From a virus: 35,233 nucleotides of DNA. The notes under the pieces were generated by a model that worked only from the letters and a program-made list of their open reading frames with translations, was not told where the DNA came from and ran no database searches. The stretch's first letter is position 1, and the number at the start of each line of letters is the position of its first letter. Made by a program: the position numbers and the translations under genes. Location of the stretch: the IMG/VR virus record IMGVR_UViG_3300006750_000036, positions 1 to 35,233 of that record; one strand, given 5' to 3'. This document shows, in pieces, positions 1 to 8,377 of this stretch.

Positions 1-2
1 AG

Positions 3-78
3 TAGGACGGGTGGGGTTCGAACCCACAATCATGAAAACATTTGAAATTTTCTGGTCTACCAATTGCCATACCGTCCC
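3..78 (-). tRNA. tRNA with anticodon CAA (Leu-like), short variable loop
   Basis: On the minus strand this folds as a 76-nt cloverleaf. The acceptor stem is GGGACGG with CCGTCCT, the T arm is GTGGG-TTCGAAC-CCCAC, and the anticodon stem AAAAT with GTTTT closes a 7-nt loop TTCAAAT, giving anticodon CAA. Base 73 is A, and CCA is not encoded. CAA should mean leucine, but the variable loop is only about 7 nt, while bacterial tRNA-Leu normally has a long variable arm. The acceptor and T arms are nearly identical to the tRNA at 267-339, so the two probably arose by duplication. The fold is fairly sure; amino-acid identity is not. Confidence 0.7.
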
Positions 79-82
79 ATAG

Positions 83-172
83 TTCCCCTGGCAAGATTCG
101 AACTTGCAAGTCACTTTGCCAAGTGACACCCCCTTCTCGTGGGATCGCGTTTACCAATTTCGCCACAGCGGA
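83..172 (-). tRNA. tRNA-Leu(GAG)
   Basis: The minus strand gives a 90-nt type II tRNA. The acceptor is TCCGCTG with CAGGGGA (one G:G mismatch), the D arm resembles leucine tRNAs (GCG-AAATTGGTAAA-CGC), and a 7-bp variable arm pairs GTCACTT with AAGTGAC. The T arm is GCAAG-TTCGAAT-CTTGC and base 73 is A. The anticodon loop reads ACGAGAA, so the anticodon is GAG. Position 33 is C instead of the almost universal U. The long arm, A73 and D arm all agree with leucine. Confidence 0.75.
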
Positions 173-174
173 AG

Positions 175-261
175 CAGAAGTGACTGGGTTCGAACCAGCA
201 GACCCTTTAACCAGGCCACAAACTTTCCAAGTTTGCTGCTCTACCAATTAGCTACACTTCT
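175..261 (-). tRNA. tRNA-Ser(GGA)
   Basis: This is an 87-nt minus-strand type II tRNA with a perfect acceptor AGAAGTG/CACTTCT, D stem GCT/AGC, anticodon stem CAAAC/GTTTG with loop TTGGAAA (anticodon GGA), a long variable arm, and a T arm with loop TTCGAAC. Base 73 is G, the serine discriminator. It sits a few bases from its neighbours, as expected for one processed transcript. Confidence 0.85.
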
Positions 262-266
262 GTAAG

Positions 267-339
267 TAGGACGGGTGGGATTCGAACCCACAATCATGAG
301 ATTTTCTAAAAATCCCTGGTCTACGTTGCCTACCGTCCC
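267..339 (-). tRNA. tRNA with anticodon TAG (Leu-like), short variable loop
   Basis: This 73-nt minus-strand cloverleaf has acceptor GGGACGG/CCGTCCT, anticodon stem GGATT/AATCT with loop TTTAGAA (anticodon TAG), and T arm GTGGG-TTCGAAT-CCCAC with A73. The acceptor and T arms match the tRNA at 3-78 almost exactly. The D loop is short and lacks a clear GG pair. TAG predicts leucine (CUA), but there is no long variable arm, so its charging identity is open. Confidence 0.65.
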
Positions 340-418: not shown

Positions 419-421
419 TAG

Positions 422-496
422 TGGAGCCTTTCGGAGTCGAACCGAACTTTCTTGGTCTTCAGCCAAGCGCTGTCACCCGACCAGCTTCAAAGCTCC
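422..496 (-). tRNA. tRNA-Phe(GAA)
   Basis: This is a canonical 75-nt minus-strand tRNA with acceptor GGAGCTT/AGGCTCC, anticodon stem CTTGG/CCAAG with loop CTGAAGA (anticodon GAA), T arm TTCGG-TTCGACT-CCGAA and A73. Its 5' end lies only 6 nt after the 3' end of the SRP-type hairpin at 503-546, so cutting at the tRNA 5' end by RNase P would also release the SRP RNA 3' end. Confidence 0.9.
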
Positions 497-502
497 ATAA
501 CA

Positions 503-572
503 CCCGTCATAGGCTGCTTGCTCTCGCACCTGACCTGTTTGACGGGCTAAGACATCCCGAAGGACTGCCTTA
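503..572 (-). ncRNA. ffs: 4.5S-type signal recognition particle RNA (domain IV)
   Basis: Read on the minus strand, 546-503 folds as an outer stem CCCGUCA/UGACGGG around the SRP domain IV core. The core is CAGGUCAGG, a 3-bp stem UGC/GCA capped by the GNRA tetraloop GAGA, then AGCAGCC. E. coli 4.5S RNA has the same flanking bases, with UCC/GGA and GGAA in the tip, so the differences are compensatory in the stem and conservative in the tetraloop. These asymmetric and symmetric loops bind Ffh in bacteria. A second hairpin at 572-548 with a C(UUCG)G tetraloop precedes it and may form the 5' part. The RNA lies between a hypothetical gene and tRNA-Phe on the same strand. Identity of domain IV is strong; the true ends are not known. 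Confidence 0.85.
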
Positions 573-1049
573 TCTTCTACAAGAATAACTTCGCCTACCT
601 TTTCTATCTTTTTTCGAAGCCTTCTTTAATTCATTTCTTTCTTTCGATGAGAGGTTTTTATCAGTGCAAACATGAGGTCGTTTTTTTAAAATTTCCTTTA
701 CGTCTGCGGGATAAAAAGTTTCCCACTTCCATTGGTGTTTCCATCCATGCCACCAGCTATTGTTTCCTTCACATCTTAAAATTGACAATAGACGTTTTGT
801 AGAAAGACCTTCAAGCCAAATAAGTGCTTTTTCTCTTTCATCACGTTGTCTTTGTTTTCTGATTTCCATTTCCATTTTGTGAACAATCCTATCGGGATTT
901 CCCACGCCAGAAAACTTTTGCCAACTTTTTTTCAAACCTCCATGAGTATCTGCTGGTCGTCTGAAAAAATAATTTATTTCATCATTGTTAAGTTCAAGTT
1001 CATTACATTCATCCCAAGAGACAAGTGCATTAATTAATATTTCGTTCAT
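570..1049 (-). CDS. hypothetical protein inside the tRNA cluster
   Basis: This 159-residue protein is not recognised. It is hydrophilic, with a Trp-rich middle (WWHGWKHQWKW, about residues 99-109) and a strongly basic Lys/Arg-rich C-terminus, which would suit nucleic-acid binding. No signal peptide or membrane segment is visible. It is the only sizeable protein gene within the stable-RNA cluster and lies in the same orientation, between the tRNA-like RNAs at 1071-1236 and the SRP RNA. Its TAA stop overlaps the start of the UUCG hairpin, so it is probably cotranscribed with the RNAs. A role in RNA metabolism would be a guess from context only. Confidence 0.7.
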   Translation of the reverse strand: MNEILINALVSWDECNELELNNDEINYFFRRPADTHGGLKKSWQKFSGVGNPDRIVHKMEMEIRKQRQRDEREKALIWLEGLSTKRLLSILRCEGNNSWWHGWKHQWKWETFYPADVKEILKKRPHVCTDKNLSSKERNELKKASKKDRKGRRSYSCRR

Positions 1050-1236: not shown

Positions 1237-1299
1237 ATTAAACAATCATGGTAATATACGTTTTCCTTTTTATTACGTTTTTTAAAGTTTGTTTTCAAG

Positions 1300-1372
1300 T
1301 ACCCAGAGCAGGATTCGAACCTGCTAACACTAGTTCCTAAAACTAGTCGCTCTGCCGTTGGCGTATCTGGGC
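1300..1372 (-). tRNA. tRNA with anticodon TAG (Leu-like), short variable loop
   Basis: This 73-nt minus-strand cloverleaf has acceptor GCCCAGA/TCTGGGT, D stem CGC/GCG, anticodon stem CTAGT/ACTAG with loop TTTAGGA (anticodon TAG), a 5-nt variable loop TGTTA, T arm GCAGG-TTCGAAT-CCTGC and A73. All stems pair well. As with 3-78 and 267-339, the anticodon says leucine but the long variable arm expected of a bacterial tRNA-Leu is absent. Confidence 0.8.
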
Positions 1373-1386
1373 TTATGTAAGTACAT

Positions 1387-1424
1387 AAAAAAAGCCTCCT
1401 TGACGCTGACGTGTCAAGGAGGCT
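1387..1424 (-). terminator. Rho-independent terminator
   Basis: A perfect 12-bp stem (AGCCTCCTTGAC with GTCAAGGAGGCT) with an 8-nt loop is followed on the minus strand by seven T residues. It lies downstream of the 28-codon ORF at 1444-1530 and upstream of the tRNA at 1300-1372, so it separates that small unit from the tRNA cluster. Confidence 0.85.
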
Positions 1425-7278: not shown

Positions 7279-7572
7279 GGGCAAGCCATGGGCGATCCAC
7301 GCTATCAACTCCCAGTAAATCTTGTCGTCTTGTTTGCTTAGGGTTAGAAGATGCGATTTCCTAAGGCTTTGTTGGTCGAAATCCTTGTCCATGGGTGATC
7401 CACGCCCAGTAAATCTTGTCGTCTTGTTTGCTTAGGGCTAGAGGCTGCAAGTTCCCTGTTTACAATACTTCGACCTTTGGGGTTCTTCAGCCTTTGATTG
7501 ATGATTTTATTGCCTAATTTTCTTAGTTCCGGTCCAACAAGCCTAAGGCTTTGTTGGTCGAAATCCTTGTCA
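7279..7572. repeat. Partial tandem duplication at the 3' end of the kinase gene
   Basis: A segment coding for KDFDQQSLR (7545-7571) recurs at about 7362-7388. A segment containing CAAGACGACAAGATTTACTG (near 7395-7430) recurs near 7305-7325. The second, leftward copy lacks about 90 bp of the middle and is read in another frame, so the duplication changed the kinase C-terminus and left an extra ORF fragment between the kinase and 7213. Confidence 0.75.
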
Positions 7573-8138
7573 TTCAGGACTGTTTGGTAGTTGCCATCTC
7601 CAAAAATATCTCGCATTTCTTTCCAGTTCTCATGGGATTTCCACCAAGCGTTGGTGAGAAAATCTTCGTCGGCCACATGCGCTCCACGCTCGCCTTTTCG
7701 TTGTTTATTTCTACGTAAAGCTGATTCCAAAGATGTTGACACAAAAACCAACGATGCATCATAACCTGCACCTTCAAAATCTGTCTTCAACTCTTGAACC
7801 AAAGCAAGATTTCTTCCAGTAATATCAACAATGAAAGGAATGCCGCTTTTGACCCAAAAATCAGTGCGAGACTTACTTATTCGAACCGCCTTCTTTTCCA
7901 ACTCTTGCTTTTTGACATAATCAGGCTGTCCCCTCACAGATTTGACAATATCTGGTGACTTCTTAGAAAACAGCTTCATAATTTCATCGCTATTAGAGCG
8001 TTTGAATTCCTGACCAAACATTTGGTTCGCAATCCATGTCTTTCCACTTCCAGGCCCGCCAGCCATAAAGATCACTCTGAATGGGTGTTTGTTGTCAGTG
8101 GCACCCTCAGATATATCTAGCCATTCCTTAAATTCCAT
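7344..8138 (-). CDS. P-loop kinase (zeta-toxin/AAA_33-like) with capsid-targeting tag
   Basis: The start at 8138 gives MEFKEWLDISE, the shared tag with I-x-E, followed at residues 27-34 by the Walker A motif GGPGSGKT. Later come IVDITGRN, a Walker-B-like strand, and an Arg-rich lid ALRRNKQRKGERG. This is the layout of polynucleotide kinase/zeta-toxin type phosphotransferases acting on RNA, nucleotides or sugar nucleotides; the substrate is unknown. The promoter at 8144-8173 puts the transcription start at or next to the ATG, so the mRNA should be leaderless. The last 25 or so residues come from a partial duplication and are probably not ancestral. If packaged, this enzyme could be delivered with the DNA. 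Confidence 0.85.
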   Translation of the reverse strand: MEFKEWLDISEGATDNKHPFRVIFMAGGPGSGKTWIANQMFGQEFKRSNSDEIMKLFSKKSPDIVKSVRGQPDYVKKQELEKKAVRISKSRTDFWVKSGIPFIVDITGRNLALVQELKTDFEGAGYDASLVFVSTSLESALRRNKQRKGERGAHVADEDFLTNAWWKSHENWKEMRDIFGDGNYQTVLNDKDFDQQSLRLVGPELRKLGNKIINQRLKNPKGRSIVNRELAASSPKQTRRQDLLGVDHPWTRISTNKALGNRIF

Positions 8139-8143
8139 GTAAC

Positions 8144-8173
8144 TATATACTTCAAAAATGTCAGATTTGTAAA
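8144..8173 (-). promoter_or_regulatory. Early-type promoter abutting the kinase start
   Basis: The minus strand reads TTTACA, 18 nt, TATATA, with the same CATTTTTGAAG before the -10 as at 2807-2836. The predicted start falls at the ATG at 8138. Confidence 0.75.
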
Positions 8174-8377
8174 CTAGGCTTTTTGAAATTTTGGAATAAC
8201 CCGAATTAAGAGGGTTGTTAGGATGGGAATCAGCGCAGTTAGTCTTATTATCAGAGGAACGGCAGTACAGCCAGCTATAACGATTGGACCTCCCAGAACT
8301 ACCAACATCACAAAAAACCTCCAAGGCTCGGGTACGCTGTCATACCAAGCATTCAAGCTTCTGATTCTCTTAAGCAT
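8174..8377 (-). CDS. Small two-helix membrane protein
   Basis: The 67-residue protein has a short basic start (MLKRIRS), then two hydrophobic segments: FFVMLVVLGGPIVIAG (about residues 21-36) and LIIRLTALIPILTTLLI (about 42-58). A good ribosome binding site, AAGGAAAGAATA, precedes the ATG. It follows the zinc-ribbon gene at 8390-8773 in one operon from the promoter at 8797-8825. It could be a small inner-membrane protein of holin or superinfection-exclusion type, but no family is recognised. Confidence 0.8.
   Translation of the reverse strand: MLKRIRSLNAWYDSVPEPWRFFVMLVVLGGPIVIAGCTAVPLIIRLTALIPILTTLLIRVIPKFQKA

Follow-up and report, generated by a model that had tools for sequence, protein, structure and literature searches.

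A candidate phage-encoded mini-RNA of the signal recognition particle consisting of domain IV alone

Background

The signal recognition particle (SRP) is the machine that delivers membrane proteins. The translation-related genes known from phages include those for tRNAs, tmRNA, ribosomal proteins and translation factors, and cleavage of tRNA precursors at the 5' end by RNase P is an established step of tRNA maturation. In E. coli, the NG heterodimer contacts the tetraloop of the SRP RNA first and the distal region of the RNA thereafter, where hydrolysis of GTP is triggered by an RNA base (PMC5454536). A survey of huge phages that relied on tRNAscan-SE and ARAGORN leaves the SRP unmentioned in its text (PMC7162821), and our own search of the open-licence literature found no description of a phage SRP RNA. 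Here we analyze an SRP-like hairpin in the full 35,233-nt IMG/VR record IMGVR_UViG_3300006750_000036 (the window, in which all coordinates are counted), which is a 35-kb fragment of a T4-like myophage.

Identification and predicted structure of the hairpin

The hairpin of the minus strand (Table 1) has the sequence GCCCGUCA AAC AGGU CAGG UGC GAGA GCA AGCA GCCU A UGACGGGU and folds with an energy of -21.7 kcal/mol (z -4.28), a stability that was matched by 0 of 200 shuffled sequences. By chance, its 24-base core motif GGTCAGGNNNGNRANNNAGCAGCC alone would occur 2.7e-6 times in this record. The Rfam small-SRP model (RF00169, Bacteria_small_SRP), against which the first-pass annotation had proposed to check the locus, aligns end to end with positions 472-570 at 40.0 bits, with an E-value of 7.7e-7 when 1.1 kb was searched, the gathering score being 40. 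The match is flagged as over the cut-off in a search of the whole record, and it is missing from the matches listed when the whole window was scanned at the gathering score with the fast filter, as would be expected of a score that lies exactly at the threshold. Many non-standard pairs occur in this alignment outside the hairpin, and hence the hairpin part alone is supported. Our own covariance model (R1), of which the window sequence is a part, scores the hairpin at 57.1 bits.

When set against the features of the SRP RNA family, the element reaches the RF00169 gathering threshold in a borderline manner and contains the GGUCAGG and AGCAGCC strands that make the symmetric loop to which Ffh binds in this family (512-535), the GNRA tetraloop on a 3-bp stem (UGC-GAGA-GCA) and the asymmetric internal loop below the core (AAC / A). 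It lies on a phage genome and is conserved in related phages, and it lacks the long rod-like helix that bears the distal GTPase-activation site. Judged from its sequence, the window element is a genuine phage gene for a miniature SRP RNA in which only the domain IV hairpin has been kept. The SRP domain IV RNA that the first-pass annotation had called on this strand is thus borne out by fold, RF00169 score and covariation (see below), although its designation as 4.5S RNA holds for domain IV only and not for the RNA as a whole. The locus it gave (503-546) compares with a measured extent of 502-547; the outer stem of 8 rather than 7 bp and the distance of 5 rather than 6 nt from tRNA-Phe are trivial differences.

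Table 1. Features of the hairpin and its surroundings in the window
Feature	Position	Strand	Evidence
Mini-SRP RNA, domain IV hairpin, ~46 nt	502..547	-	fold, RF00169, model R1, covariation with nine other phage hairpins
8-bp outer stem	540-547 with 502-509	-	predicted fold
3/1 asymmetric loop, AAC / A	537-539 / 510	-	predicted fold
4-bp inner stem	533-536 with 511-514	-	predicted fold
4x4 symmetric loop, CAGG/AGCA	529-532 / 515-518	-	predicted fold
3-bp apical stem, UGC/GCA	526-528 with 519-521	-	predicted fold
GNRA tetraloop, GAGA	522-525	-	predicted fold
Invariant Ffh-binding core, GGTCAGG-NNN-GNRA-NNN-AGCAGCC	512..535	-	exact motif, invariant columns in 10 phage hairpins
tRNA-Phe(GAA), 5 nt downstream of hairpin 3' end	421..496	-	ARAGORN, Rfam tRNA
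Remaining downstream tRNAs: Leu-CAA, unassigned (anticodon GAGA), Ser-GGA, Leu-UAG	2..339	-	ARAGORN, Rfam
Small UUCG-capped hairpin directly 5' of SRP hairpin	550..570	-	fold of 497-570
159-aa ORF directly upstream of hairpin	570..1049	-	ORF list
tRNA-Leu(UAG), first recognised tRNA of minus-strand cluster	1299..1372	-	ARAGORN, Rfam
Strong bidirectional terminator-like hairpin, upstream bound of cluster	1393..1424		predicted hairpin

Genomic context in the window

The phage genes of the window code for a tail sheath protein, a T4 baseplate hub protein, a gp19-like tail tube protein, SbcCD, a B12-dependent ribonucleotide reductase, a CTP synthase and a protein with sigma-70 region 2. The hairpin is embedded in a minus-strand tRNA cluster that spans 2-1372 in the ARAGORN predictions. 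The ORF upstream of it, for which no Pfam match was found, is probably co-transcribed with it. The UUCG-capped hairpin on its 5' side, of which a counterpart (TTCG) is present at the same place in G014/G040, might serve as a 5' boundary or protective element.

Several other features of these arrays deserve mention in their own right. The tRNA called by ARAGORN at 82-172 (-) has an apparent eight-base anticodon loop with the anticodon read as GAGA, and is possibly a frameshift-suppressor-like serine tRNA; three additional intervals (340-418, 1073-1157 and 1158-1240, all on the minus strand, one of them Tyr-like) are tRNA-like and were left uncalled by ARAGORN. Nearly all of the ~64 ARAGORN calls in the arrays of the window, G004, G011, G014/G040 and G015 are Leu, Ser, Tyr and Phe tRNAs. 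This unusual restriction to long-variable-arm tRNAs plus Phe might reflect a nuclease or modification of the host that is aimed at such tRNAs. The window also encodes a protein with a Zeta-toxin/AAA_33 kinase domain (7344-8324, -), possibly a polynucleotide kinase.

Distribution of the hairpin among phages

A motif scan of IMG/VR yielded 45 loci, which were sorted by RF00169 scoring, tRNA mapping and folding into compact hairpins on phage contigs, full-length SRP RNAs and chance matches. The compact hairpins fall into a group of window relatives with ~50% amino acid identity (group A: G004, G006, G011, G014/G040, G015), a group accompanied by RIIA, RIIB, RtcB and tmRNA (group B: G030, G043/G028), a 202-kb contig that has 64 tRNAs, a tmRNA and a DNA polymerase of its own (group C: G027) and a group with terminase (group D: G033/G037/G038). 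The hairpin is thus present in at least three phage groups unrelated to the window family, with up to 64 tRNAs. All carriers are metagenomic, and their phage genes include those for sheath, T4 baseplate, terminase, DNA polymerases, RIIA/RIIB and UvsX. A tmRNA accompanies the hairpin in G027, G028/G043 and G030; G020 and the G030/G043 set encode RtcB. Longer, full-length-like SRP copies were detected on the phage-like contigs G008 and G020.

Model R1 recovers the hairpins of G027 (E 1.8e-7) and G033 (E 7e-10), as well as a hexaloop version from a second motif scan that lies 3' of a phage tRNA-Thr (L210, 39.8 bits), all three of which are outside its training set. Given that the asymmetric loop is absent in G027 and G043, the outer stem in G033, and that L210 has a hexaloop, the copies need not all work alike.

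Of the 45 loci, about half proved to be host SRP genes, located at the edges of proviruses or on contigs of host-like character, and were excluded, as were several chance matches that lack the fold. G031, which has a full-length SRP RNA and an integrase, was treated as host-like, and L313, despite its truncated look, is an ordinary bacterial gene beside dnaX-like sequence. Around 14 isolate proviruses (L002, L003, L006, L008, L014, L017, L020, L022, L023, L025, L026, L030, L033, L037) contain full-length SRP genes that are nearly identical to one another; several of these genes lie ~600 bases from where the provirus is predicted to end, a position that suggests integration next to ffs. A hexaloop motif scan additionally retrieved two IMG/VR contigs (L232, L242) on which an SRP-like hairpin has a symmetric loop of 5x5 and a ~15-bp stem. 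Two carriers show further RNA-related features: G043, a phage genome with 52 tRNAs, has a match to the GOLLD RNA (L095 13496-13936), and G037 (L116) encodes a Ro60/TROVE RNA-binding protein (1042-2682, -) on the contig that it shares with the mini-SRP and a tRNA array, along with two tRNAs called as Pyl (CUA), which are possibly amber suppressors.

Searches in other sets of records delimit this distribution. RF00169 matched 0 of 43 sheath-related IMG/VR records, and R1 gave no convincing match among sheath-protein relatives; most relatives thus lack the element, which points to an accessory gene that has been repeatedly gained or lost, within the limits set by records that are mostly fragments. 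No match to RF00169 was obtained in the huge-phage records of 735-484 kb (LR756501-LR756504, LR745206, LR756508, LR756511), and blastn with several hairpin variants over 50,697 deposited phage records returned chance matches inside structural and other genes, and one host-like fragment. A gene of the SRP54 family (Ffh or FtsY GTPase) was found in none of 18 phage records, with all 14 control genomes giving matches, and any partner of the RNA would therefore be the host Ffh.

Among 84,980 species of bacteria and archaea, none has the exact apex of the window hairpin, although Methylophilaceae, Planctomycetota, Erysipelotrichaceae and others commonly combine this stem with a different GNRA loop. 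This absence of the apex argues against a recent capture from a host or chimerism, and does not by itself identify the host. Mis-assembly of host DNA into a phage contig, a possibility that the first-pass annotation had raised, is conceivable in so far as the IMG/VR scan also hit many host SRP genes of full length, which lie at prophage edges or on host-like contigs. It is nevertheless extremely improbable here, as the same contig bears phage genes and phage tRNAs, the order of SRP hairpin and tRNA-Phe is common to the window and G011, the truncated form is unlike bacterial SRP RNAs, and an identical apex is missing from the species surveyed.

Covariation and selection on the RNA

The first-pass annotation had proposed a comparison with related phages, and in the five further genomes of the window family the pairing is kept through wholesale compensatory change. 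To quantify this over ten phage hairpins, the paired segments were aligned after the asymmetric loops had been excised by hand. Standard pairs occupy 98.5% of the pair cells in this alignment, 10 of the 13 base pairs are changed on both sides, and 48 cells are doubly changed as against 13.2 in shuffles; the covariation score is 0.995, compared to 0.206 for shuffles and at most 0.193 for slid registers, and although hand excision tilts the alignment toward the tested register, the slid controls are less than 51% paired. Pairing of the apical stem is 100% across the phage hairpins. The symmetric-loop strands CAGG and AGCA are invariant in all ten, in part by construction since the search motif required the loop, but the stems were free of motif constraint. 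The contrast seen in these sequences is far beyond what a hand-cut alignment could produce, and covariation with kept pairing renders the identity of the element, which evolves as an SRP domain IV, secure.

These results bear on the proposal that the hairpin is a passive fossil, namely a fragment of a host ffs gene that was picked up with a tRNA cluster and is now functionless. Bacterial SRP genes can be found close to tRNA genes, the hairpin lies within acquired tRNA clusters, and its presence among relatives is patchy, all of which would be consistent with such an origin. However, the widespread compensatory change around an invariant protein-binding loop largely refutes this proposal, the same trimmed hairpin recurs across unrelated phages, copies outside tRNA clusters precede terminators, and the window apex has no prokaryotic counterpart in the species noted above. 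We accordingly consider it very unlikely.

Position relative to tRNAs and terminators

In 8 distinct arrays (window, G011, G014/G040, G015, G030, G027, G033, G037), 5-15 nt separate the end of the core from a following tRNA, and the order of the hairpin followed by tRNA-Phe seen in the window recurs in G011. This spacing could be taken to mean that the hairpin guides the processing of the next tRNA and resembles SRP RNA by descent only. Such a tRNA-leader role is hardly probable, as the hairpins of G043 and L210 come after a tRNA with none nearby downstream, those of G004 and G006 lie on the strand opposite the tRNAs or on a contig without tRNAs, and a processing hairpin would have no need of the invariant CAGG/AGCA loop. 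In G004 (near 60.7 kb) and G006 (near 90.4 kb), an ORF common to both genomes (C-terminus ...VPGREPGQA) extends at its 3' end into the hairpin, a dual arrangement of coding sequence and RNA; a terminator lies downstream of the hairpin. As these hairpins precede a terminator, the RNA itself is the thing kept, and the conserved feature is the hairpin rather than the neighbouring gene.

Size, the missing distal region and functional predictions

With the core enforced, the window hairpin has 9 enclosing pairs and 46 nt, and the members of group A have 7-11 pairs, versus medians of 26 pairs and 95 nt in 77 bacterial SRP loci with the same apex type; in groups B to D the count is less clean, for the folds run into adjoining tRNA sequence. 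The compact phage RNAs thus possess the tetraloop site and lack the distal GTPase-activation site, and on our analysis this missing region argues against their being a full functional stand-in for 4.5S RNA.

We propose that the hairpin would be transcribed together with the tRNAs and that RNase P, by cutting the next tRNA (tRNA-Phe in the window) at its 5' end, would set the 3' end of the mini-SRP RNA, a prediction that derives from the spacing in the eight arrays. The released RNA would bind the M domain of the host Ffh, giving rise to a hybrid SRP during infection; we consider binding to Ffh quite likely. As to the purpose of this binding, one option is supply, wherein an SRP core RNA is provided beside the phage tRNAs and tmRNA, such that co-translational targeting of phage membrane proteins could persist when host RNAs are depleted or limiting. 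The company of tRNAs, tmRNA and RtcB and the existence of longer copies slightly favour supply, to which we would give not quite an even chance; interference with the host is a more tentative purpose.

A specific form of interference is that of an SRP decoy or poison. The hairpin would bind Ffh, and via its GNRA loop also the early FtsY complex, and the hybrid SRP, being devoid of distal docking, could not activate GTP hydrolysis, so that host targeting is dampened or redirected. Loss of the distal site makes this a serious rival: the compact copies hold just the Ffh-binding and tetraloop parts, with the few enclosing pairs of the window family given above, and the E. coli NG heterodimer moves from the tetraloop to the distal SRP RNA, at which GTP hydrolysis is induced (PMC5454536). 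On the other hand, long-helix copies exist in G008 and G020, the tRNA and tmRNA setting suits supply more than sabotage, and the exact GNRA loop, which a decoy would not need, is kept in most copies, and on balance we regard the decoy as rather unlikely. Taken together, the reading we prefer, and hold to be probable, is that of an SRP-core RNA released by tRNA processing and loading the host Ffh, most likely for supply. It is a bolder and doubtful conjecture that there is a recurrent class of phage genes in which an SRP RNA of domain IV only captures host Ffh and FtsY, the distal GTPase step cannot be completed and large phages thereby rewire membrane protein traffic.

In either case, the phage mini-SRP RNAs suggest that viruses supply or tamper with host protein delivery. 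If they are functional, the viral take-over would reach past translation to co-translational membrane targeting. As natural minimal SRP RNAs of ~46 nt, the hairpins could also serve as a probe for the parts needed in Ffh loading, FtsY recruitment and GTPase activation. Genes of this kind escape both protein-centred annotation and tRNA finders.

Comparison with known systems

The element belongs to a known RNA family, that of the SRP RNA, and as far as the open-licence literature shows its predicted phage-encoded miniature form is the new aspect. With the bacterial small SRP RNA or 4.5S RNA (RF00169, ffs) it shares the full domain IV, including GGUCAGG/AGCAGCC, the symmetric and asymmetric loops and the GNRA tetraloop. 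It differs in being phage-encoded within a tRNA cluster, in its length (~46 versus ~95 nt) and in having neither the long helix nor the distal GTPase-activation region. Like the tRNAs and tmRNA of large phages (e.g. PMC7162821), it is a stable host-type translation RNA found in the same arrays, sometimes along with tmRNA, but its proposed role is in membrane targeting rather than decoding. GOLLD and other non-coding RNAs are similarly found inside phage tRNA clusters; GOLLD, however, is a large RNA of unknown function, with a fold unrelated to that of the mini-SRP.
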